From an uncultured cyanobacterium (GTDB taxonomy: Bacteria > Cyanobacteriota > Cyanobacteriia > Cyanobacteriales > Microcystaceae): a stretch of DNA of 41,783 bases. The DNA is taken from the NCBI GenBank assembly GCA_903869185.1, contig CAIPYC010000010.1, forward strand, positions 1 through 41,783, read 5' to 3'. Made by a program: the position numbers and the translations under genes. The notes below the pieces were generated by a model. It made no database searches. It had not been told where the DNA came from and worked only from the letters and a program-made list of their open reading frames with translations. Shown one piece after another: positions 8,985 through 41,078 of this stretch. Numbering within the stretch: position 1 is the first letter of the stretch; every line of letters starts with the position of its first letter.

Positions 8985-9646
8985 GAAACAGTCCAACCTA
9001 ACTTGGTTGATTGCTGGTATATCTTCTTGAGAGTATTGATATCCCGCTTTGAAATAAACTGCGCTGCCGGGCTCTGGGAAGCATACATTCTGTCACTAGG
9101 CATATCGCTATGTCCCCAGATCCCCAACGCATGACCAAGCTCATGTTCGACGGTTGATTGCAAACTATATTGGGCAAGATCCGGTGAGATCTTGATGGTC
9201 ATTTTTTGCATCAGAGTATTGTCTTTAAAATTGTAAAAACAATAGGTTGTTTGCCCAGCTCTTGCTCTCGTTGGACTTGCTGGAGGATGTTTTCTTAAAA
9301 TTTCAATATCAGAGCTTTCCGGTTCGGCAACAACGCTTAATGGCAAATAGAGAGACCAATTTTCTAAAGACGCTCTAGTTAACCTATTCCAACTCTGCCA
9401 GCGCTTATCAAGAGCTGAACCGTTTGTTATATGTGTTGGCTCCTGCTCTATGTAAACCTTAATCGGAAACCTAGACCAAATCAAATAGCCAGCCGATGTC
9501 GGGAAAACCTCTGAAAAATAGTCCCCCCCATTATTGTCTTGCCAATTTGCCAAGCCAAGAGGCAAAGGGTGTATGCCAGTAGTCAATGCACTCTGGCACA
9601 AGAGCACAGAAAGCGAGAACAATGATACCCGAAAACTAAGCACCAA
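8897..9646 (-). CDS. Secreted matrixin-like zinc metalloprotease
   Basis: A 249-residue protein with a signal peptide (about residues 1-22). The zinc site HELGHALGIWGH followed by SDMPSDRMY is the metzincin HExxHxxGxxH motif with a Met further on, as in matrixins (M10). Three zinc-binding histidines and the catalytic Glu are all present. It probably acts in the periplasm or outside the cell. After the typical ending near TKLGW there is a Ser/Lys-rich tail of about 30 residues, encoded opposite the DUF4327 gene. The start overlaps the end of secG by 11 bp, so it is likely co-translated with secG and gpmI. Confidence 0.82.
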   Translation of the reverse strand: MVLSFRVSLFSLSVLLCQSALTTGIHPLPLGLANWQDNNGGDYFSEVFPTSAGYLIWSRFPIKVYIEQEPTHITNGSALDKRWQSWNRLTRASLENWSLYLPLSVVAEPESSDIEILRKHPPASPTRARAGQTTYCFYNFKDNTLMQKMTIKISPDLAQYSLQSTVEHELGHALGIWGHSDMPSDRMYASQSPAAQFISKRDINTLKKIYQQSTKLGWTVSYSSQDSTKINSLTGSWSEKPKSSSSCFQ

Positions 9647-29723: not shown

Positions 29724-30815
29724 TTAACCAATTCTCTCTAGATAATGATAATAGGCAGCGCAGGCTCCTTCTGAAGAGACCATGGGCGCGCCCAGAGGGT
29801 GTTCCGGCTTACAACCAATTCCAAAATGGGGACATTGATCTGGCTTGCGCAGTCCCTGTAAAATTTCACCGCAGATATTTTCTGAGTCGATATTTTCTGT
29901 TATCGGTAAATCATTAAACCGCTCTAGAGCATCAAAGCGGCGATATTGCCAACTCAATTCCCAGCCACTGTTACCAATCTGGCCGATACCTCTCCAGTGG
30001 CGATCTACCACTGTAAAAACCTCCTCGATTAACTTTAAGGCTTGTAAGTTGCCATAAGGTTTAACCGAGCGCGAATAACAATTTTCCACCTCAAATCTTC
30101 CTTCTTCCAACTGCTCAATGCAATGATAGATTCCCTGAAGAATATCGGCAGGCTCAAATCCTGTTACAACAATTGGTACTTGGTATTGCTGGGCAATTGC
30201 CTGATAGGCTTGATAACCGGTGATAGTACAGACATGGCCGGCAGCTAAAAAACCTTGAATCTTGGATTGGGGAGAATTTAGCAGGCTAGCCATTGCCGGG
30301 GGAACCAGCACATGAGCGCAAAGAAGCGAGAAGTTGTCCAATCCCAATTGATCAGCTTTTTTTACAACTAAAGCTGTGGCAGGGGCGGTAGTTTCAAAAC
30401 CCACTGCCAAAAAAACTATTTCACTTTTTGGAAAACTCTGGGCAAGGGTCAGCGCATCCAGCGGAGAATATAGCGTTCGTATATCTGCGCCATTTGCCTT
30501 GGCCAGGGCAAGATCTCCCTTGCTGCCAGGTACGCGCAACATATCCCCAAATGTACAAAAAATCACCCCTTCTTGCTGAGCTATAGCTATAGCCTGGTCG
30601 ATTGTAAAAGATGGGGTAATGCAGACAGGGCAACCTGGACCATGCAACAGAGAGATTGAAGCGGGCAAAAGTCTATCCAATCCATATTTGAGAATAGTGT
30701 GGGTTTGTCCGCCACAAATTTCCATGATCTGCCAATGGTTCTTAGTAATAGAGGCAATTGCGCTGGCACAATTGAGGATCAAACTGGACTGGCGAAACTC
30801 ATCGATATATTTCAT
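29724..30815 (-). CDS. hypD: Hydrogenase maturation factor HypD
   Basis: A 363-residue Fe-S protein that, with HypC, assembles the Fe(CN)2CO unit of [NiFe]-hydrogenases. Seen: [10 protein letters not shown] near residue 33, [11 protein letters not shown] near 58, [21 protein letters not shown], and the C-terminal cluster ligands [19 protein letters not shown]. All conserved Cys of the family appear. The start ATG lies inside the end of hypC, overlapping by 17 bp, so the two are translationally coupled. It is the last gene of the leftward maturation operon. Confidence 0.96.
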
Positions 30816-31041
30816 CTATCTGACCCATGGTCTGGAGATCTTCTAGGGTCTGCTGGGCTTCAAGGGGATCTAGTAGACTGATGGCTACTCCTGCATGAAC
30901 TATGACATAGTCCCCTGGCTGGGCTTGGGGTATATAGGCTAAGGAAATATTCTTGGTGATCCCGGCAAAACGTACTTTAGCCATCCTTTCTAGCTCCTGA
31001 CCATAGATATCGAGAATCTCACCTGGAATTGCCAAACACAT
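30799..31041 (-). CDS. hypC: Hydrogenase maturation chaperone HypC
   Basis: An 80-residue protein starting MCLAIPGEI. The Cys-2 that carries the iron unit is in place, followed by the conserved [17 protein letters not shown] and [14 protein letters not shown]. It shuttles the iron-cyanide-carbonyl unit from HypD to the HoxH precursor. Its ATG follows the hypF stop directly (TAGATG), and its end overlaps hypD. Length is normal. Confidence 0.96.
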
Positions 31042-33282
31042 CTAGATCTCTCTACTCTTTTTTTTAGACATACATGCCAATATCTGACCGGCTGCAATAC
31101 CGCCATCATTGGTTGGAACTTGCTGATTCCAAAAAGGCTTAAAACCATTGCGCTCTAGATAATCAATAGATCTCTCCAGTAAATAGCGATTTTGGAAACA
31201 GCCACCTGTTAGGACTACATTGGTTATATTTTGGCGCTGGGCAACTTCTACAATCATTTCGACCAAGCTATTGTGGAAACAATGAGCGATCTCTTCTACT
31301 GGTCTATTATCTGTAATATCTTCTAGGATATCTTTAACCATTGGCTGCCAATCAATCACCCCTGAGCCTGAAATAACAAAAGGATAAAACTGCGAATAAT
31401 CTTTTAAGATGCAACAAGACTCAAGAGCCAGAGCAGCCTGCCCCGAAAAGCTCACCACTTCGACGAGTCCCAGCAGATAGGACAGGGCATCAAACAACCT
31501 ACCCATACTGGAGGTGCGCACTATGTTGATTCCTTTGGTGAGCATTGCCTGGAGAATTTCATGTCCAGTATCTTCTCTCCAGCCTCCTTCCCAAAGTAGC
31601 CCCAAAGCCGAGCGCAAAGGTTCTCTACTAGAGCCTCCAGGTAGAGCAAAGGTACGAAGATGGGCTACTCTTTGCCAACTAAATTGCTCTCCAATTTGCA
31701 GAAACTCACCGCCCCAAACCGTCCCATCTAGGCCATAACCTGTGCCATCCCAAGCCACGCCCAGAACCGGCGGCTCTATCTGATGCTCCCCCATGCAGGA
31801 GAGAACATGGGCATAGTGATGCTGTACCTTAATTAGGGGTAATTGCAACTTTCTAGCCATCTCTGTGGCCAAAAAAGTGGAATTGTAATCAGGATGTATA
31901 TCAGAAGCGATCATTGTTGGCTTGAAACTATAGAGACTGCTCATATGATCGATCACTTTCTGGCAATGTTGCCAATTCCTTGAGTTATCCAAATCACCTA
32001 TATGAGCGCTTAGACTGAGGATATTTTCTGAGCCAAAAGCTACTGTATTTCTCTCTTGAGCTCCATAAGATAATATTTTTGAGGTATCATGTGTATCATA
32101 TTTTGGAGTGGTTACCGCAAGAGGAGCATAGCCCCTACCTAAGCGCAAAATTACAGGGCGATCGGCTATAACTTGCGCTAGAGAATCATCCAATGGTATT
32201 TTGATGGGTCGATTATGCAATAGGAAAAGATCGGCAATCTTGCCCAATCTAGCAAGTGCTTCGTCATTGTCGCTGCAGAGAGGATCACCAGAAATATTGC
32301 CACTGGTGTTTACCACTGCAAAGGGCAGCTCACTCATCAACAGATAATGGAGGGGAGTATAGGGTAACATTGCCCCCAGGCTTGGACAGCCATCATTAAC
32401 ACCTTTGTACCTTATTAGGGGTCGCAATAAAACTATCGGCGCTGCCCAGGATTGCAACAGTTCTTTCTCTGCTTTTGAGACCTGGGCATCAAGCTTCAAT
32501 CTTGACAAATTGGGATAAAGCAAGGCAAATGGCTTGGCAGGACGATTTTTAAGTTTTCGCAACTTGGAGATCGTCGATTCGTTGCGCGCATCTGCTAATA
32601 TTTGGAACCCGCCTAAACCCTTGATGGCAACTATTGAACCAGCGCTAATTGCTTGGGCAGCCAGTTTAATTGCTTCATCTTTGCTGGCTTTTAGTCGTCC
32701 TTGATTATCCAGAAGGCTTAGTTGGGGACCACAATTGTCACAGGCAATCGGCTGGGCATGAAAACGCCGACTTCGGGGATCACCATATTCTTCTTGGCAA
32801 TCTGGGCACATTGGAAAAATACGCATCGAGGTGTTAGCTCGGTCATAGGGCATTGATTCGATAATGGAAAAACGCGGACCACAATCTGTGCAATTGATAA
32901 AAGGATAGCGGTAGCGACGATTACAGGGATCCCACATTTCTTTTAGACAGTCACTACAAACAGCTAAATCAGCTAAGACATGAGAAGATGTATCGGTATG
33001 TATAGTGGAATCTTTAAAATTAAAATCACTATAGCCAACCGGTTCAAGCCAATCTTTCTTGATCTTGTCTATGTTGCTATGTAGGGGGCACTCATTGAGT
33101 ATGCGCTCTGCAAAGCTGAGTAAGTCACTTTGGGATCCTTCTATTTCAATTTTTACATTATGCCCGTTGTTTTGCACCCAGCCATTGAGGTCTAAATGCC
33201 TGGCCAAGCGATAGACAAAAGGTCTAAAACCAACACCCTGCACTATTCCCTCGATTTCCAGAACTAGGCGTTTTCTGTTCAT
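31042..33282 (-). CDS. hypF: Carbamoyltransferase HypF
   Basis: A 746-residue enzyme that makes the carbamoyl group used by HypE for the cyanide ligands. Domains in order: acylphosphatase (GIVQGVGFRPFVYRLA near residue 12); two zinc fingers (CSDCLKEMWDP with NCTDCGPRFS, and CPDCQEEYGDP with CDNCGPQ); YrdC-like (IKGLGGFQILADA, NRPAKPFALL); and Kae1-like (QHHYAHVLSCMGEH, VLGVAWDGTGYGLDGTVWGG, LTGGCFQNRYLLE). All are intact and the length is usual. Its ATG overlaps the hypA stop as ATGA. hypE, whose product is its direct partner, is not in the window. Confidence 0.96.
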   Translation of the reverse strand: MNRKRLVLEIEGIVQGVGFRPFVYRLARHLDLNGWVQNNGHNVKIEIEGSQSDLLSFAERILNECPLHSNIDKIKKDWLEPVGYSDFNFKDSTIHTDTSSHVLADLAVCSDCLKEMWDPCNRRYRYPFINCTDCGPRFSIIESMPYDRANTSMRIFPMCPDCQEEYGDPRSRRFHAQPIACDNCGPQLSLLDNQGRLKASKDEAIKLAAQAISAGSIVAIKGLGGFQILADARNESTISKLRKLKNRPAKPFALLYPNLSRLKLDAQVSKAEKELLQSWAAPIVLLRPLIRYKGVNDGCPSLGAMLPYTPLHYLLMSELPFAVVNTSGNISGDPLCSDNDEALARLGKIADLFLLHNRPIKIPLDDSLAQVIADRPVILRLGRGYAPLAVTTPKYDTHDTSKILSYGAQERNTVAFGSENILSLSAHIGDLDNSRNWQHCQKVIDHMSSLYSFKPTMIASDIHPDYNSTFLATEMARKLQLPLIKVQHHYAHVLSCMGEHQIEPPVLGVAWDGTGYGLDGTVWGGEFLQIGEQFSWQRVAHLRTFALPGGSSREPLRSALGLLWEGGWREDTGHEILQAMLTKGINIVRTSSMGRLFDALSYLLGLVEVVSFSGQAALALESCCILKDYSQFYPFVISGSGVIDWQPMVKDILEDITDNRPVEEIAHCFHNSLVEMIVEVAQRQNITNVVLTGGCFQNRYLLERSIDYLERNGFKPFWNQQVPTNDGGIAAGQILACMSKKKSREI

Positions 33283-33554
33283 AGCCTAGTAGATTCGACT
33301 GGCTCTGCTCCTGATCCTTCTATCGAAACTAGGGTCAATTCCTTTTCATCATCGAACCATTGGATTTCCAAGCTAGCTCCAGCTGCAATAGTTTCTTTGC
33401 TGGAGATGGCAAAGCCAAGCTCTAATGCTTCAGGCAATATACCTGAGCGCTTCCCCAATTGCAGGGTAATTTTATCAATCCTATCTAGACCATTACTAAG
33501 AGCTTTTTGACAGGCGATATTGAGAATTTGTTCGATCAAGCCCAGTTCATGCAT
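33279..33554 (-). CDS. hypA: HypA-like nickel protein lacking the zinc-binding domain
   Basis: A 91-residue protein that begins like HypA: MHELGLIEQILNIACQKA with the nickel-binding Met-His-Glu start, then GKRSGILPEALELGFAISSK and GASLEIQW. HypA proteins are normally about 113-118 residues and have two CxxC pairs after this point that hold a structural zinc. Here the sequence goes from LEIQWFDDEK straight to ELTLVSIEG, which resembles the family's last strand, and adds AEPVESTRL. Only one Cys remains, in the first helix. The gap is in frame; no frameshift hides the missing part. The stop overlaps the hypF start (ATGA), so the locus is organised as usual. It may be an altered functional HypA or a decaying one. 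Confidence 0.85.
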   Translation of the reverse strand: MHELGLIEQILNIACQKALSNGLDRIDKITLQLGKRSGILPEALELGFAISSKETIAAGASLEIQWFDDEKELTLVSIEGSGAEPVESTRL

Positions 33555-33560
33555 AATTCT

Positions 33561-33992
33561 CTAAAATTCAAAAAAATATTTAACAATGGCAATAGCTTCT
33601 GTTTTGCCTACCCTGGCAATTGGACTTAAACAATCGCCGAGAGAAAAATCCAGAGCCGCAACGCCTAGCAACCAGATCTGGGGAGATCTGCCATAGAGCC
33701 ACTGCGTCAGGGAAATCAAGCTATTGATGTTGCAGTGATGAGTGAATGTTTCCATATAATCACTGCCATGGAGCAGCTCAATGGCCGCACCTATTGACAG
33801 ACTTGGGCAAGCATCTATAAATATTGCCCGTTCAAACCGGGACAATTGCTCAGCGAGATCGAATGTGAGTCCAGTTACGGTCAACACCTCAACCTGTTCA
33901 ATTTGCCAAGCGGCAATCTCTTGCGCTACAACAATTCCCACGCCGTCATCTCTTCTCAATGTATTGCCATAGCCAATGACTAATGTCCTTAT
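33561..33992 (-). CDS. hoxW: Hydrogenase maturation endopeptidase (HoxW-like), probable AUA start
   Basis: This protease trims the C-terminus of the HoxH precursor after nickel insertion. The family must begin with a strand leading into GYGNxLRxDDG; here LVIGYGNTLRRDDGVG is in frame at 33983-33936. Between that and an upstream TAG (34005-34007) there is no ATG, GTG or TTG. An ATA at 33990-33992 would give M-R-T-LVIGYGN and lies 9 bases after AGGGG. The first standard start is a TTG at 33957-33959, which would drop the first strand and the conserved Gly-Asn. Nickel-binding residues look present: Asp-16 (from the ATA start), Asp in FIDACPS and His in FTHHCN. hypA starts 6 bp upstream of the end of this frame in the same operon order. 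The name follows context; the cognate large subunit is inferred. Confidence 0.8.
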   Translation of the reverse strand: MRTLVIGYGNTLRRDDGVGIVVAQEIAAWQIEQVEVLTVTGLTFDLAEQLSRFERAIFIDACPSLSIGAAIELLHGSDYMETFTHHCNINSLISLTQWLYGRSPQIWLLGVAALDFSLGDCLSPIARVGKTEAIAIVKYFFEF

Positions 33993-34001
33993 TCGTCTTT
34001 T

Positions 34002-34185: not shown

Positions 34186-34620
34186 ATGTCTGGATTTGGG
34201 CTGGTGGATATGGCAATGAGACGGCATCAATTCAGACCAGATGCCCTGATTGAAGTGCTCCATAAGGCCCAGGAATCAGCTGGCTTTCTAGATGAAGCAG
34301 TATTACTACATATTGCCCGGGGTTTGAAGCTACCTCCTAGCCGGGTCTATGGAGTGGCGACATTCTATCATCTTTTTTCGCTTGAACCTAAAGCGCTGCA
34401 CACCTGCCTGGTTTGCCTGGGTACTGCCTGTCATGTCAAGGGAGCTAATGAGATCATGCTGGTTCTAAGCAATAGACTCTCGGGCAACAAAGATCAGATA
34501 TCCCTGAAGTCGGCACGCTGCTTGGGCGCATGTGGTATTGCGCCGATTGTGGTGATCGATGGAGAAATCAAAGGTAAACAAACTGTTCAATCTGCCCTCT
34601 TTAATATTCAGCAAATCTAA
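34186..34620 (+). CDS. hoxE: Bidirectional [NiFe]-hydrogenase diaphorase subunit HoxE
   Basis: A 144-residue NuoE-like subunit with a [2Fe-2S] cluster. Seen: FRPDALIEVLHKAQESAGFL, LKLPPSRVYGVATFYHLFSL, and the cluster ligands in CLGTACHVKGA and ARCLGACGIAP. HoxE works with HoxF and HoxU in electron exchange with NAD(P)H, ferredoxin or flavodoxin. The N-terminus is about 20 residues shorter than in Synechocystis as I remember it; ATG at 34186 has a GAGGA site in front. It is the first gene of the hox operon, divergent to the maturation genes. Confidence 0.95.
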   Translation: MSGFGLVDMAMRRHQFRPDALIEVLHKAQESAGFLDEAVLLHIARGLKLPPSRVYGVATFYHLFSLEPKALHTCLVCLGTACHVKGANEIMLVLSNRLSGNKDQISLKSARCLGACGIAPIVVIDGEIKGKQTVQSALFNIQQI

Positions 34621-34624
34621 AGAT

Positions 34625-36202
34625 ATGGATGCCAACGAACTACAAGGGATAGCCAAGCGCGAACATGCCAGAATTAAGCCGGTGATCATCCGCTGTTGCA
34701 GCGCAACCGGTTGTCTCTCCTGCGGGGCTATGGAGATCCAAAATCGATTAAGGGTTCTGTGCATTGACCACCCGGAAATACAGATAGAAACTGTAGGCTG
34801 TATGCTTTTATGCGGCAGGGGACCTTTAGTGGAAGTATCAGGAACACTTTATGAACAAGTCAATATAGAGCAAGCCTCTGCAATAATTGCTGGCGACCAG
34901 TCAAAGCAACTGAAAGTCTGCGATCTCAGTCATCCTTTTTTTAGTAAACAGTTTCCTATAGTCTTGGAAAATTCCGGCAAGATCAATCCCGAGCGCATTG
35001 AATCCTATATTGCCGTTGGAGGTTACACTCAGCTATTGCATGTACTTACCGCCATGCATCCCCAGAATGTCATTGAGATGATCAATATCAGTGGACTGCG
35101 TGGGCGCGGCGGCGCTGGTTATCCTACAGGACTCAAGTGGTCCACGGTAGCCAAAATGTCTTCCAAACAAAAGTATGTAATTTGTAATGCCGATGAAGGC
35201 GATCCCGGTGCTTTTATGGATCGCGCGGTGCTAGAGAGTGATCCCCACCGCGTGCTTGAGGGAATGACCATCGCCGGTTATGCCGTAGGAGCCAACCATG
35301 GATATATTTATGTCAGAGCTGAATATCCCCTGGCTATTGAAAGAATCCAAAAAGCAATCGAACAAAGCAGACAATATGAACTCAGCGGCAATGGTATCTT
35401 TGGTTCCGGTTTTGATTTTAAAATTGAGATCAGAATTGGTGCGGGCGCCTTTGTCTGTGGGGAAGAAACAGCGTTGATCCAGTCGATCCAAGGCAGTAGG
35501 GGTACACCATCGCCACGGCCTCCTTATCCTGCCGAATCAGGACTTTGGGGTTGTCCAACCCTGATCAACAACGTGGAGACATTCGCCAATATAGTACCAA
35601 TATTGCGCCAGGGTGGAGATTGGTATGCCAATATTGGTACCGCTAAAAGCAAAGGCACTAAAGTATTTGCCCTAAGCGGCAATGTCGCCAATGCAGGTTT
35701 AGTGGAAGTACCTATGGGGACAACACTGCGCCATGTTGTTGAAGAAATGGGCGAAGGGATAGAGGTTAAGGCTATACAGACAGGAGGTCCATCGGGCGGT
35801 TGTGTGCCAGCCGAGTTGCTTGATACTCCGATAGATTATGAATCCCTCCAACGTATTGGAACTATTATCGGCTCAGGAGGAATGATTGTAATTGGAAAGC
35901 AAGCCTCTATGGTTGAGATGGCTTATTTTTATATGCAGTTCTCTCGAGAGGAAAGTTGCGGTAAATGTATTCCCTGCAGGGCGGGAACTGTGCAGTTGGA
36001 ATTAGTGCTAAGCCGAATTCTTGAGGGGCGGGCCACTATGGCTCAACTTGAACAAATCAAGCAACTTTCCTATATGGTCAAGGAGATGAGTCTTTGCGGA
36101 CTGGGACAAACCGCTCCTAATCCCCTTTTAAGTAGCCTGAAGTACTTTGAAAATGAGTACTTGGAATTACTGCAAAAAGAGGAAAACATATCATGTCAGT
36201 AA
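34625..36202 (+). CDS. hoxF: Bidirectional hydrogenase diaphorase subunit HoxF
   Basis: A 525-residue flavin subunit. The N-terminal thioredoxin-like [2Fe-2S] domain carries CCSATGCLSC and VGCMLLCGRGP. The NuoF-like part follows with FMN/NADH sites GLRGRGGAGYPTGLKW and NADEGDPGAFMDR, then the [4Fe-4S] ligands ESCGKCIPCRAGT and the last Cys in SLCGLGQTAPNP. It oxidises or reduces NAD(P)(H). The ATG at 34625 is chosen, 4 bp after hoxE; a start farther upstream would lie inside hoxE. The 3' end overlaps hoxU by 10 bp. Confidence 0.95.
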   Translation: MDANELQGIAKREHARIKPVIIRCCSATGCLSCGAMEIQNRLRVLCIDHPEIQIETVGCMLLCGRGPLVEVSGTLYEQVNIEQASAIIAGDQSKQLKVCDLSHPFFSKQFPIVLENSGKINPERIESYIAVGGYTQLLHVLTAMHPQNVIEMINISGLRGRGGAGYPTGLKWSTVAKMSSKQKYVICNADEGDPGAFMDRAVLESDPHRVLEGMTIAGYAVGANHGYIYVRAEYPLAIERIQKAIEQSRQYELSGNGIFGSGFDFKIEIRIGAGAFVCGEETALIQSIQGSRGTPSPRPPYPAESGLWGCPTLINNVETFANIVPILRQGGDWYANIGTAKSKGTKVFALSGNVANAGLVEVPMGTTLRHVVEEMGEGIEVKAIQTGGPSGGCVPAELLDTPIDYESLQRIGTIIGSGGMIVIGKQASMVEMAYFYMQFSREESCGKCIPCRAGTVQLELVLSRILEGRATMAQLEQIKQLSYMVKEMSLCGLGQTAPNPLLSSLKYFENEYLELLQKEENISCQ

Positions 36203-36909
36203 TCACCTTGGAAATCAACGGCATTGCTTTGGCTGTAAAGCAGGACACCACCATCTATCAGGCAGCAGTAGAGGCCAAAATATATGTGCCCACTCTTTGC
36301 AATTTGGAAGGATTGTCTCCGGTGGGAGCTTGCCGGCTTTGCCTGGTTGAGCAAGTTGGCTCTAGTAAGCTCCTGGCTTCCTGTTGCACCAAGGTAGCAG
36401 AAGGAATGGAGATCTTTACCGAGACTCCAAAGTTACAACAATATCGCCTCATGAATGTTGAAATGTTGTTTTCCGAGGGAAATCACATCTGCGCAGTTTG
36501 CGTGGCCAATGGCGCTTGTGAATTGCAAGATGTTGCGGTAGCAGTTGGTATGGATCACAGTCGTTTTCCCTATCGTTTTCCAGATCGCCATGTAGATCAT
36601 TCCCATCCGATGTTTGGCATTGATCATAATCGCTGCATCCTCTGTAGCCGCTGCGTGAGGGTTTGTGATGAGATTGAAGGGGCTCATGTCTGGGATATAG
36701 CCAAAAGAGGCGCTGACTGCTATGTAGTCTCAGGATTGAATCAGCCTTGGGGGGAGGTAACTTCGTGTACTAGTTGCGGCAAATGTGTTGATGCCTGTCC
36801 CACTGGTGCCATTTTTGTCAAGGGAACTACAATTGGCCAAAAAAATGATGGTCACGAGAAATTGGATTTTTTAATTAGAGCGAGGGAAAAACAAGAATGG
36901 ACAAGATAA
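36193..36909 (+). CDS. hoxU: Bidirectional hydrogenase diaphorase subunit HoxU
   Basis: A 238-residue Fe-S subunit resembling the N-terminal part of NuoG. Cluster ligands appear in order: CNLEGLSPVGACRLCLVE with SCC for [2Fe-2S]; ICAVCVANGACELQ; and two ferredoxin-type sets CILCSRCVRVC and CTSCGKCVDACPTGAIF. It carries electrons between the diaphorase and HoxYH. It overlaps hoxF by 10 bp and hoxY by 13 bp, with no extra genes between, unlike some cyanobacterial hox operons. Confidence 0.95.
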   Translation: MSVITLEINGIALAVKQDTTIYQAAVEAKIYVPTLCNLEGLSPVGACRLCLVEQVGSSKLLASCCTKVAEGMEIFTETPKLQQYRLMNVEMLFSEGNHICAVCVANGACELQDVAVAVGMDHSRFPYRFPDRHVDHSHPMFGIDHNRCILCSRCVRVCDEIEGAHVWDIAKRGADCYVVSGLNQPWGEVTSCTSCGKCVDACPTGAIFVKGTTIGQKNDGHEKLDFLIRAREKQEWTR

Positions 36910-37445
36910 GATTTGCTACAGTCTGGCTCACGGGTTGTTCAGGCTGTCATATGTCTTTTCTGGATTTGGATGAATGGCTCTTTGAATTAGCCAAAGCAGC
37001 CGAAATAGTCTATAGTCCCATCAGCTCTGATATTAAGGAGTATCCTGCCGGTGTGGATTTGGTTTTGGTTGAAGGTGGAGTTGGTAATCAAGATAATCTC
37101 AATTTAATAAAAAAAGTACGGCAAAATTCTAAAGTCCTGGTCTCTTTTGGAGATTGTGCCATTTCGGCCAATGTTCCAGGTATGCGCAATATGCTTGGTG
37201 GTTGTAAATCGGTTCTGGAGCGCTCTTATTTGGAGCTGACTGATAATAATGCCCAAATACCCTCCCAAAGCGACATTTTACCAGTATTACTAGATCAGGT
37301 TTTGCCTATCCACCAAGTGGTAGAGGTTGATTTTTTCCTGCCAGGCTGCCCGCCGTCCAGTGAACATATTAAAAACACATTGATGGCTCTATTGGAAGGC
37401 AAAACTCCATCTATAGTAGATCCAGAAATACTCAGGTTTGGCTGA
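36897..37445 (+). CDS. hoxY: Bidirectional hydrogenase small subunit HoxY
   Basis: A 182-residue small subunit that holds the [4Fe-4S] cluster next to the active site. The ligands are in WLTGCSGCHMSFLDLDE near residue 14, VSFGDCAISANVPGMRN near 84 and FLPGCPPSSEHI near 150. There is no twin-arginine signal, as expected for the cytoplasmic or thylakoid-associated group 3d type. It starts within hoxU and ends 5 bp before hoxH. Confidence 0.95.
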   Translation: MDKIRFATVWLTGCSGCHMSFLDLDEWLFELAKAAEIVYSPISSDIKEYPAGVDLVLVEGGVGNQDNLNLIKKVRQNSKVLVSFGDCAISANVPGMRNMLGGCKSVLERSYLELTDNNAQIPSQSDILPVLLDQVLPIHQVVEVDFFLPGCPPSSEHIKNTLMALLEGKTPSIVDPEILRFG

Positions 37446-37450
37446 TTATT

Positions 37451-38869
37451 ATGAATAGAATCATTGTTATTGACCCACTTACCCGCATTGAAGGGCATGC
37501 CAAGATATCAATCTACCTAGACGATTCGGGTATGGTCAGCGATGCTAGATTTCATGTCACTGAATTTCGTGGTTTTGAGAGGTTCTGCCAAGGAAGACCC
37601 CTAGCAGAAATGCCTGGGATCACTGCCAGAATTTGTGGTATTTGCCCGGTTAGCCATCTGCTAGCTTCTTCCAAGTCGGCAGACAAGATTCTCTCGGTTG
37701 CTATTCCAGTTTCTGCTCAAAAGCTGAGACGTTTGCTCAATTTAGCTCAGATTATTCAATCGCATGCTCTTTCTTTTTTTCATTTGAGTAGTCCTGATTT
37801 TCTCCTAGGTTGGGAAAGTGATATAGCTAAGCGAAATATCTTTGGTTTAATGGAAGCCAATCCAGAGGTGGCCCGCGCCGGAATCAGATTGCGCCAATTT
37901 GGCCAAGGCATCATCGAATTGCTCGCTGGTAGAAAAATTCATGCCAACTGGTCTGTTCCAGGTGGAGTGCTCACTTGTCTTTCTGCTGAAGGTAAGGACT
38001 GGATTGGAGAGCGTATAGCTGAATCATTGCATACTATCGAGATGGCTTTAGATCTATTCAAAAAATTACTGGATAAGCAATTTAGTCAAGAAGTAGAGGT
38101 TTTTGGCAATTTTCCTTCCCTTTTTATGTCTTTAGTTGGCCAACAAGGACAATGGGAACATTATGACGGCAAGATTCGCTTTGTCGATAGCAACAGCAAT
38201 ATAGTCAGTGACAATTTGAGTGAAGATGATTACCCACAATTTATCGGCGAATCGGTGGAGAGTTGGTCTTATCTCAAATTTCCCTACTACAGGCCATGGG
38301 GTTATCCTAATGGTATCTACAGAGTAGGCCCTTTGGCCAGACTTAAGGTATGTCAATATATTGGCAGTGAATTGGCCGATCGTGAATTTAGAGAATTTCG
38401 CTCTCGCTCGGGTAATTCATCTTTTTACTATCACTATGCCCGTTTGATAGAGATTTTGGCTTGTCTGGAAAAAATACAGGATTTGATTGAGGATCAAGAT
38501 CTCTATAGTGATCGACTGCGATCCCAGGCCGGCATCAATCAACTTGAAGCAGTAGGTGTCAGTGAAGCTCCCCGAGGTACTCTTTTTCATCATTATCAAG
38601 TAGATAAAAATGGTTTGATTGCCAAGGTCAATCTGATCATCGCAACTGGTCAAAATAATCTGGCTATGAACAAAACCATCGCTGAGATCGCCAAGCACTA
38701 TATCAAGGGATGTGAGCAAATCCCTGAAAGTTTGCTAAATCGGGTAGAAGCCGGTATCCGCTGTTATGATCCTTGCCTATCTTGCTCAACCCATGCCATA
38801 GGTCAAATGCCATTGCAAATAGAATTGATAGATGCCAATGGTGCCATTGTTGGAGAGATTTCTAGATAA
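37451..38869 (+). CDS. hoxH: Bidirectional [NiFe]-hydrogenase large subunit HoxH
   Basis: A 472-residue catalytic subunit. The nickel ligands are in RICGICPVSH near residue 60 and DPCLSCSTH near residue 440; the N-terminus IDPLTRIEGHAKI is also conserved. About 24 residues follow the last ligand, ending in VGEISR. This is the extension a maturation protease removes, so a working HoxW-type enzyme is needed. It is the last gene of hoxEFUYH; the next gene begins 64 bp later. Confidence 0.96.
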   Translation: MNRIIVIDPLTRIEGHAKISIYLDDSGMVSDARFHVTEFRGFERFCQGRPLAEMPGITARICGICPVSHLLASSKSADKILSVAIPVSAQKLRRLLNLAQIIQSHALSFFHLSSPDFLLGWESDIAKRNIFGLMEANPEVARAGIRLRQFGQGIIELLAGRKIHANWSVPGGVLTCLSAEGKDWIGERIAESLHTIEMALDLFKKLLDKQFSQEVEVFGNFPSLFMSLVGQQGQWEHYDGKIRFVDSNSNIVSDNLSEDDYPQFIGESVESWSYLKFPYYRPWGYPNGIYRVGPLARLKVCQYIGSELADREFREFRSRSGNSSFYYHYARLIEILACLEKIQDLIEDQDLYSDRLRSQAGINQLEAVGVSEAPRGTLFHHYQVDKNGLIAKVNLIIATGQNNLAMNKTIAEIAKHYIKGCEQIPESLLNRVEAGIRCYDPCLSCSTHAIGQMPLQIELIDANGAIVGEISR

Positions 38870-38933: not shown

Positions 38934-41078
38934 ATGGGATTTTTAAATCGGCTCAGCTTAGGCTCAAAAATATTATTAACCCTGTTGTTGATTACCTTTG
39001 TGTCTATGTTTTTGACAGGTTGGGTGAGCTTTAGCAATGGAAAACATTCACTTGAGCAGTTGACTTTTGATCAGTTGCAGGGTTTACGCACTCTCCAAGC
39101 TAAGAGCCTTACCAGTAACTTCGAGAAAAACTTAGATCTGGCATTGACCATGAGTGAAGCCAGCGATACGTTACTGGCATTAAATGAATTTAAGATTGCG
39201 GCCACCAAACTCGAGAAGGTGCCAATTGACCAGCAGCAACTTAGATATCTCAAAGATTACTACAATAAGGACTTTTTGCCGAAACTGTCTAAAGGTACCG
39301 ATAGTCAGCCCAAGGCTCAACATTTCATTCCATATAATAGCGTTCAAGAATACTTACAATACTTTTATATAGCTAAAAATCCTTATAAAGATGACGATAA
39401 AGCAAAATTAACTTTTGCTAATGATGGCAGTGAATATAGTAAGGTACACCAAAAATATCATGACGACTTTTACAAAATCGTTAAAAGATTCAAATTTGAT
39501 GATATGTATTTGGTTGATGCTAAGACTGCTCAAGTTGTTTACTCAGAAGGGAAAAAAGTCGATTTCCTGACAGATCTAAGATCCGGACCCTATTCTAATT
39601 CTAATCTAGCTAGAGCTTTTGAAAAGTCCATCCACTCTAAGGGAGATCTTACATTTGTATCCTGGGTGGATTTTGATAACTATACTCCAAGTTATGGAGT
39701 TCCCAAGGCCTTTATCACTACTCCTATCTATGAGGGTAGCCAGATTGCCGGAGTGTTGATATTTGAAGTAAGTATTGAAAAACTAGATCGTTTGATGACC
39801 TTCAATCATCGTTGGCAAGAAGCGGGGCTGGGCAAAACTGGACAAACCTATTTAGTCGGACCAGATTATCTACTGCGCTCAGATGTTCGTCCATTCATTG
39901 AAAACAAAGCGCTCGCTCTAAAGTTTTTAAAAGAAAAACGAATTGATCCGGAGATAATAAGAAAAATTGAGCTTCATAATACCCCAATTCTTGCTCTTAA
40001 GCTGGACATCGAACCAGTTAGACGCGCTCTAGATGGTCAATTTGGGGTTGTGCAATACAAAGGCTATGAAGATCGCTCTGTCTTGGCTGCTTATCAACCG
40101 GTTGAACTTGCCCATGGCGGATCTCGCTGGGCATTGATTGCCATAAAGTACGCGGATGAGGCTTTTGCTCCGATACGCCAACTCACTAGAGAGCTAATAA
40201 TCACTGCAGCCATATTGGTTCCGATTGTTACGTTAGTTTCAATGTATATTGCACGGTTCCTGACAAACCCAATTAAAAATCTTATAAATGGTACAAAAAA
40301 AATAATGTCCGGTGAAAGTGGAATTAGGATCAACGTTGAATCGCGCGATGAAACCGCTGAATTCGCCAAGACGTTTAATACCATGTCCGCCAATCTTGAT
40401 AGCAAAAACCAGTTGCTCCAAGCTCAAATAGAGGAAAATCAGCGTCTTTTGCTTAATATAATGCCAGAGCATCTGGCTGAGCGTATGAAAAATGGAGATG
40501 AAGATTTAGTTGACAACTATCCGGATGTGACCCTTGTCTATATCGAAATTGATGGATTTAATGAGATTGTCGCTACAAGTACAGTTGGTGAATCTAGAAG
40601 CTTGTTTAATGAGTTAATTGTGGCTTTTGATCAAGCTGCCGAAAACTATGGGGTTGAGAAATTTAAAACTATTGGATACTCTTACATCGCGGTCTGTGGT
40701 CTCAGTATCTCCCGAGTAGATCACATTCTGCGCTCTGTTCAATTCGCCCAAGCTATTGTTAAATTGGTCTATCTATTCAATCAAAAACAAGAATCTCAAC
40801 TGAGTTTAAGAATTGGTATACATTCGGGTCCTTTAGTTGGAGGAATCATTGGACAAGAACGGTTAGTTTTTGAACTATGGGGTGAGACCATGGATATTGT
40901 TAAAGCGATCAATCTGACGTCTGCGCCCAATAATATTCATGTGAGTGAATCTGTAAAGACGGACTTGAGCGATACATATGACATGAAGCTTGTTGGTAAT
41001 TATGTTGAAACCAATAAAAGCAAAATTGAAATCTGGGCATTACACTCTGTAGATTCTCTAAAGACTGCAGGAGAATAA
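38934..41078 (+). CDS. Membrane receptor with HAMP and degenerate class III cyclase domain
   Basis: A 714-residue protein. Layout: membrane segment near residues 11-33, a large outside sensor region of about 380 residues (Cache-like, with TYLVGPDYLLRSDVRP), a second membrane segment near 422-442, HAMP (FLTNPIKNLINGTKKIMSGE), a short helix LLLNIMPEHLAERMKNG, then a class III cyclase homology domain (about 530-705). In that domain the two metal Asp are replaced: Glu-538 in VYIEIDGF and Tyr-582 in KTIGYSYIAV. The transition-state Asn and Arg are Asp-654 and Ala-658 in WGETMDIVKAI. Lys-578, a purine-contact position, remains. It is probably not an active cyclase, but may bind a nucleotide or signal by dimer change. 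The next gene, an MscS-type channel, starts 4 bp later. Confidence 0.88.
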   Translation: MGFLNRLSLGSKILLTLLLITFVSMFLTGWVSFSNGKHSLEQLTFDQLQGLRTLQAKSLTSNFEKNLDLALTMSEASDTLLALNEFKIAATKLEKVPIDQQQLRYLKDYYNKDFLPKLSKGTDSQPKAQHFIPYNSVQEYLQYFYIAKNPYKDDDKAKLTFANDGSEYSKVHQKYHDDFYKIVKRFKFDDMYLVDAKTAQVVYSEGKKVDFLTDLRSGPYSNSNLARAFEKSIHSKGDLTFVSWVDFDNYTPSYGVPKAFITTPIYEGSQIAGVLIFEVSIEKLDRLMTFNHRWQEAGLGKTGQTYLVGPDYLLRSDVRPFIENKALALKFLKEKRIDPEIIRKIELHNTPILALKLDIEPVRRALDGQFGVVQYKGYEDRSVLAAYQPVELAHGGSRWALIAIKYADEAFAPIRQLTRELIITAAILVPIVTLVSMYIARFLTNPIKNLINGTKKIMSGESGIRINVESRDETAEFAKTFNTMSANLDSKNQLLQAQIEENQRLLLNIMPEHLAERMKNGDEDLVDNYPDVTLVYIEIDGFNEIVATSTVGESRSLFNELIVAFDQAAENYGVEKFKTIGYSYIAVCGLSISRVDHILRSVQFAQAIVKLVYLFNQKQESQLSLRIGIHSGPLVGGIIGQERLVFELWGETMDIVKAINLTSAPNNIHVSESVKTDLSDTYDMKLVGNYVETNKSKIEIWALHSVDSLKTAGE

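Follow-up and report, generated by a model that had tools for sequence, protein, structure and literature searches.

A short HypA without its zinc domain in a cyanobacterial Hox hydrogenase locus: a candidate for nickel insertion without HypB

The DNA stretch analyzed here (the window, 41,783 nucleotides from an uncultured cyanobacterium of the Microcystaceae) carries a Hox-type [NiFe] hydrogenase locus in which the maturation protein HypA retains its nickel-binding domain and has no zinc-binding domain. No HypB of the GTPase type was found above cut-off in the corresponding genome. The same short form occurs in a second species of the genus, and zinc-less HypAs without a detected hypB also occur in a distant family of the phylum and on proteobacterial plasmids. 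We consider it reasonably probable that this protein is a functional minimal HypA serving a nickel insertion that does not depend on HypB. The window represents contig 10 in a draft genome of 2.76 Mb (G000; 205 contigs, 96.56% complete), and the two features of main interest are the following.

33279..33554, minus strand: hypA, zinc-less short form, consisting of the nickel-binding domain and a C-terminal tail (open reading frame, PF01155 and TIGR00100 matches, alignment, model)
33342..33359, minus strand: junction, residues 66-71 (WFDDEK), the site of the missing 32-residue zinc domain, where a turn is predicted to link strand 61-67 to strand 73-81 (alignment, model)

The hypA product comprises 91 residues with the MHE nickel motif at its N-terminus. 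It matches PF01155 with 52.7 bits (gathering cut-off 28.9) over profile positions 1-66 of 112 only, and the match to TIGR00100, the NCBIfam HypA equivalog, covers positions 1-65 only and stays with 48.1 bits under the cut-off of 88.1. The protein contains one cysteine in total and no CxxC. Compared to five full-length HypAs of the Hox type (L018, L028, L033, L083, L084), it lacks in every case 32 residues between the LEI strand and the final strand ELTLVSIEG, which is retained. A first-pass annotation of the window, made from the sequence alone, had described just this: a HypA core with its MHE kept, both CxxC pairs absent, an in-frame internal loss between these two strands, and an ATGA coupling to hypF, which we read as the overlap of hypA stop and hypF start at 33279-33282. 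Its estimate of about 25 missing residues is near the difference in total length (91 compared to 113 residues, i.e. 22) but understates the internal loss, because the short HypA also possesses a C-terminal tail of approximately 11 extra residues.

There is no second HypA in the window genome, where a PF01155 search at E<=10 yields this gene alone. The idea that the zinc domain might be encoded elsewhere was rejected on the same search, and within the genus at E<=1 only weak partial matches appeared in the two other genomes (G001, G002). Neither of the two findings named beforehand as contradicting a genuine loss, a further full-length hypA or a restored four-cysteine region, was encountered, and the second species shows the same junction.

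Whether a stable fold could form without the zinc domain had also been raised earlier. An AlphaFold2 model based on a four-row alignment predicts a complete fold with good confidence (predicted local distance difference test score, pLDDT, 85.1; predicted template modelling score, pTM, 0.73). The predicted elements are helices 2-20 and 41-51 and strands 25-34, 61-67 and 73-81, and only the tail (85-91) falls below a pLDDT of 50. A short turn links the last two predicted strands at the site where the zinc domain is inserted in other HypAs. While a sequence search of the PDB gave zero matches at E<=1, relatives were found by fold: the eight best structural matches are all HypA (Z 11.1-14.7), with the next row at Z 7.2. 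The top neighbors are 3a43_B (Z 14.7; root-mean-square deviation 1.3 Å over 86 residues), the HypAB complex 5aup_H (Z 14.7) and the HyhL-HypA complex 5yxy_E (Z 14.6). The HypA structures of T. kodakarensis (3a43, 5aun/5aup, 5yxy) superpose on the predicted short HypA over 82-86 residues with 1.1-1.3 Å. In contrast to the model they carry the zinc domain, and the position of their His98 falls, as read off the structural alignment ranges, in the part absent from the model. PMC7055735 reports that, in the T. kodakarensis HypAB complex, this His98 is added to the MHE site and completes the nickel site.

The best match to the HypB model TIGR00073 in the window genome reaches 79 bits (cut-off 121.2), where the GTPase type was searched and the ATPase type was not, and the matching protein is UreG (TIGR00101, 348 bits). 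The second species (G001) likewise has only UreG, an orthologue with 89% identity. An archaeal-type HypB (MinD/Mrp-like ATPase) was not seen by eye beside the window hypA, no dedicated search having been made. In four loci of relatives (L083, L084, L090, L092) the order is hoxW-hypA-hypB-hypF, and the hypB slot is empty in the window; judged from gene order, this genus has therefore probably lost the hypB that stood between hypA and hypF. The first-pass annotation had considered a minimal-HypA lineage and remarked that hypB is not nearby. This can be extended: no HypB above cut-off was found genome-wide in either species, and a distant family as well as plasmids show the same combination.

Three genomes represent the genus (G000, G001 and G002). 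In the second species (G001; 120 contigs, 99% complete) HypA has 94 residues and the same junction, with 58% identity over 91 codons, and the gene arrangement equals that of the window (hoxW-hypA-hypF-hypC-hypD / hoxEFUYH), with hoxH split across two contigs. The short form is hence conserved in a close relative, a point the earlier annotation had singled out for checking. The two hypA genes differ at 30, 20 and 44 sites of codon positions 1, 2 and 3 over these 91 codons. The ratio of nonsynonymous to synonymous substitution rates (dN/dS), calculated by the method of Nei and Gojobori (NG86), is 0.16 for hypA at a dS of 1.88, which is near saturation. The neighbors give 0.20 (hypF), 0.13 (hypC), 0.13 (hypD) and 0.11 (hoxW), and hoxE, hoxF, hoxU and hoxY lie between 0.07 and 0.13.

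These values bear on a suggestion of the first-pass annotation, namely that the gene has begun to decay. We hold this to be quite unlikely, be it that nickel insertion no longer needs hypA or that the hydrogenase is falling out of use. The frame is open and its junction identical in the two species, selection is purifying as on the neighboring genes, the predicted fold is confident and complete, and the hydrogenase genes are open, none of which supports decay. In its favor one may cite that zinc-site cysteines are needed in H. pylori, at least in the part of PMC5557546 available, and that in the third species (G002) no HoxH-like protein was found at E<=1e-10 and no HypA above cut-off. An assembly or sequencing error could be suspected in a draft of 205 contigs, but the same feature in the second genome, with many synonymous differences, reduces this to a negligible chance. 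On the sequence evidence, error or decay at this locus is not likely.

To place the finding in a wider context we turned to larger genome samples. Of all 50 genomes of the window's family, 47 have HypB above cut-off, and those without it are exactly the three of the window's genus; HypA is above cut-off in 48 of the 50, and the complete list contains no short HypA alongside a full-length one. One family member (G045) possesses HypB above cut-off and no such HypA, which is the reverse of the pattern studied here. An even sample of the phylum comprised 386 genomes (HypA criterion E<=1e-6; the two tables compared by eye). HypA occurs in 132 of them, HypB above cut-off in 127, both in 126, and HypB alone in G045. 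Six genomes contain HypA and no HypB above cut-off (G000, G053, G059, G066, G198, G163), and in the first four of these HypA is short, with profile ranges of 1-66, 1-67, 1-59 and 1-66, respectively. Out of the remaining 128 HypA genomes 126 have HypB, the exceptions being G198 with a HypA remnant and G163 with a broken hypB. The remnant (L058:1498-1755, minus strand) matches profile positions 34-111, i.e. the zinc part is kept and the N-terminus is absent, and the best HypB-model match of this genome is below cut-off (5.8e-23). In the 126 genomes with both proteins the best HypA E-values are <=2.6e-20, compared to approximately 1e-13 for the N-terminal domain alone, and two of the weakest matches (G325 and G180) span positions 1-111. 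The HypB search of the phylum scored seven candidates per genome; the negative result for G066 means absence among the matches listed.

The order sample (389 genomes, HypA in 328) gave a similar picture: among the matches listed, only the two species of the window's genus are at the level of the short form, G545 (6.1e-16) and G198 (8.1e-18) are weak, and the others have 2.1e-25 or better. The class of G066 comprises 18 genomes, 6 of which have HypA: three genomes combine a full-length HypA with HypB above cut-off (G056, G062 and G077, the HypB of G062 with one internal stop), and three combine a short HypA with no HypB above cut-off (G053, G059, G066); the complete list for this class shows no short HypA alongside a full-length one. 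The first relatives considered as further short forms (L011-L013) were all full-length HypAs with two CxxC pairs and were rejected.

These data also allow another alternative to be weighed, in which the short HypA would partner UreG, or another G3E GTPase, instead of HypB, and the GTPase cycle would be kept. UreG is encoded in both species of the genus, and TIGR00073 has a weak match in the genome G053 (3.1e-21). However, ureG is distant from the hyp locus, and relatives in which HypB is retained often show UreG-like matches below cut-off as well. Of the genomes with a short HypA, G059 gave nothing with TIGR00073 at E<=1e-15, and G066 does not appear among the matches listed, seven candidates per genome being scored. 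We regard such a partnership as rather unlikely.

The second group of short HypAs belongs to a different hydrogenase. In G053 and G066, members of the distant family f32, a short HypA of 86-89 residues without CxxC is encoded after a hydrogenase maturation protease, at loci with genes for a ShyA/HydA-like [NiFe] hydrogenase and a transhydrogenase. From this ShyA/HydA match we read the hydrogenase of f32 and of the plasmids as group-3b-like. The NAD(P) transhydrogenase genes (L064, L066; one identified by a model) adjoin the hydrogenase genes upstream of the short hypA. In G066 hypF, hypC, hypD and hypE lie downstream of hypA, and hypB is absent there. HypB queries against the f32 loci L064-L066 gave nothing at E<=10, while HypB of the control loci L083 and L090 was detected at E<=1e-54. 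The dN/dS between the short hypA genes of G053 and G066 is 0.13. The zinc-less hypA of G059 (L061:1474-1713, minus strand) shows a frame change near residue 59, with the remainder in another frame.

Beyond the phylum of the window, plasmids and three loci were covered. With the HypA of G053 as query, tblastn against plasmids gave six records, four of which align over 83-86 of 86 residues in a single ungapped piece. The hosts are Burkholderiales (Burkholderia savannae, Pandoraea faecigallinarum, Pandoraea vervacti and Paraburkholderia phytofirmans OLGA172), and three out of the four plasmids were typed as conjugative. Their HypAs have 94-104 residues and no CxxC; MHE is present in the f32 proteins and in three of the four plasmid copies. 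On three plasmids hypA is followed by hypF, hypC and hypD and an annotated hypE occurs, hypC and hypD being unannotated on one. HypB queries against the four plasmid stretches and 100,000 of the 100,282 bases of pPV15 gave a best E of 0.042, which is unconvincing, the host chromosomes not being examined. The window HypA itself hit 69 plasmid records, none covering 80%, so that no Hox-type short form was found there.

Several of these plasmid copies stand beside broken genes, which is a further argument for decay. On pOLGA1 (L103:14001-14315) the zinc-less HypA has MRE where MHE is expected, and the stretch read gave no match to hypF, hypC or hypD; its hypA may be decaying. The large-subunit gene is whole on pOLGA1 and on the B. 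savannae plasmid (L106). On the two Pandoraea plasmids it is broken: on pPF72-1 (L104:2431-3555) only its last 111 residues are left, beside an IS6-family transposase, and on pPV15 (L105:12202-13490) it is frame-shifted.

Trees of the HypA core place the short HypAs of the window's genus and those of the 3b type in two separate, well-supported and distant groups. By tree path the nearest full-length HypAs of the window protein are Hox-type and from the same phylum. Among the closest are those of L018, L028, L083 and L084, which, unlike the window protein, have two CxxC pairs and come from genomes with HypB above cut-off. A clade of the window's genus with five Hox-type HypAs is not present in the free tree and is not rejected (p 0.112). 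The 3b-like form shares with the window the missing domain and the lack of a detected hypB; it differs in its hydrogenase, in its branch of the HypA tree and in a turn at the zinc-domain site that is about five residues longer.

It is conceivable that the short HypA arose once, together with a HypB-free cassette, and then spread sideways instead of by repeated loss. The presence of the 3b-type form on mostly conjugative plasmids would suit such a history, and one clade uniting all short forms is compatible with the tree of the HypA core (not rejected by the approximately unbiased, AU, test, p 0.31 and 0.153; 75-80 columns). In opposition to this, a HypF clade of the window's genus and f32 is rejected (AU p 0.018, 9 rows), the window HoxH is closest to cyanobacterial and Chloroflexota Hox enzymes and distant from the f32 enzyme, and both the different turns and the nearest full-length HypAs point to separate histories. 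We therefore regard a single origin as unlikely; given the HypF result and the distant large subunits, two origins appear likelier, though not proven. Tentatively, and with slightly less than even confidence, we propose that a HypB-free nickel route with a HypA cut down to its nickel domain has at least two origins. One would concern Hox in one cyanobacterial genus, the other the 3b-like enzyme found in a distant family and on proteobacterial plasmids; this second one could move as a self-contained cassette on conjugative plasmids.

A mechanistic aspect arises from the published structures. In the canonical system HypB reshapes HypA, bringing a histidine from outside the nickel domain to the MHE site, which leads to nanomolar affinity. 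As His98 needs HypB in order to complete the nickel site, the zinc domain could become dispensable once HypB is lost. After the loss of HypB the zinc domain would thus be without a partner and could be dropped, the flanking strands being joined by a tight turn. The N-terminal MHE site of the short HypA would still bind nickel, and the nickel domain might dock on the N-terminal part of immature HoxH, to which the Fe(CN)2CO group, a product of HypCDEF, is already attached. The short HypA would then transfer nickel to HoxH, and HoxW would cleave HoxH, which would lead to an active hydrogenase. Contact of the N-terminal tail of immature HyhL with the HypA nickel site (PMC7055735) and a bypass of HypAB by high nickel (PMC12134894) are reported. 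E. coli requires the contact between HypA and HypB (PMC3287977).

Several observations weigh against a functional minimal HypA acting without HypB. Single cysteine changes in the zinc site of H. pylori HypA leave 9-60% hydrogenase activity (PMC5557546); therefore removal of the domain should harm unless the partner context changed. UreG of the two species of the genus might replace HypB, and the HypB negatives cover the GTPase type, an archaeal-type (ATPase) HypB not having been searched. The Hox-linked short HypA is known from two species only. The genome G163 encodes a full-length HypA beside the C-terminal third of hypB only (L068 near 9199-9414), so that loss of HypB need not be followed at once by loss of the zinc domain. 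For the phylum and order samples the best 150 HypA matches were listed, and genomes with both a short and a full-length HypA (and HypB) might escape notice in them. Of the four plasmids only L106 (B. savannae) carries the full gene set, so that the plasmid copies by themselves do not show a working HypB-free system. Finally, since a single clade of short HypAs is not rejected, the number of independent co-losses is unsure.

With canonical HypA/HybF (PF01155; TIGR00100) the short HypA has in common the MHE motif, the PF01155 match, the predicted nickel-domain fold, its place in a hyp operon next to [NiFe] hydrogenase genes and the coupling to hypF. It differs in lacking the zinc domain with its two CxxC pairs, in scoring below the TIGR00100 cut-off and in the GTPase-type HypB not found in its genome. 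We recognised no description of a zinc-less HypA or of HypB-free maturation in the open-licence literature of PubMed Central. A 2016 survey of cyanobacteria, in the portion available, mentions certain strains without some hyp genes and reports key Hyp residues as conserved (PMC5186783).

In the papers considered, the role of the zinc site was probed by point mutation in an organism with HypB (PMC5557546). Natural zinc-less HypAs from lineages without a detected HypB offer a direct test of the purpose of this domain, and if our reading is true, the zinc domain of HypA exists mainly for the partnership with HypB. The pattern is more general than the window alone, as plasmids and a distant family show it too, in every case without a HypB having been found. 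Genome pipelines may err in calling maturation "incomplete" without HypB or a short HypA "partial". Perhaps a short nickel-insertion route could also simplify the heterologous production of hydrogenases.

The other genes of the hydrogenase locus in the window are listed below.

29724..30815, minus strand: hypD (TIGR00075, 486.5 bits)
30799..31041, minus strand: hypC (TIGR00074, 78.9 bits)
31042..33282, minus strand: hypF, start inside the ATGA overlap with hypA (TIGR00143, 794 bits)
33561..34001, minus strand: hoxW-type hydrogenase maturation protease, start codon uncertain (64% identity to the gene in the same place in G001)
34186..34620, plus strand: hoxE (homologues in place in L083, where it is cut by the locus end, L084 and L090)
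34559..36202, plus strand: hoxF, start probably near 34625 by comparison with G001, downstream of the first in-frame ATG (open reading frame, relatives)
36193..36909, plus strand: hoxU (open reading frame, relatives)
36897..37445, plus strand: hoxY, small subunit (open reading frame, relatives)
37451..38869, plus strand: hoxH, large subunit and nickel recipient, with the motifs RICGICPVSH and DPCLSCSTH (open reading frame, profile, motifs)

The gene at 34186 we take to be hoxE from its sequence and the gene order. The hoxW product is 35-42% identical to the genes in the hoxW place of L083 and L084, and a Pfam scan of 33561-33977, within hoxW, gave no match at E<=1. As hypE was found elsewhere in the window genome, HypC, HypD, HypE and HypF as well as HoxEFUYH are all encoded.

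Some further HypA fragments were noticed in the searches. Second hypA copies in two genomes (G021:C107, G022:C174) match profile positions 27-112 only; in G021 the part matching 1-56 adjoins with stops, and this is probably a broken copy. Two frames of 71-72 residues (G007:C32:138129-138254 and G008:C24:39741-39857) have a HypA match confined to the zinc part (63-104) and are perhaps free-standing zinc ribbons. In the window, directly after hoxH, a frame of 714 residues (38934-41078) looks by eye like a membrane receptor-like protein with a nucleotide-cyclase-like end.

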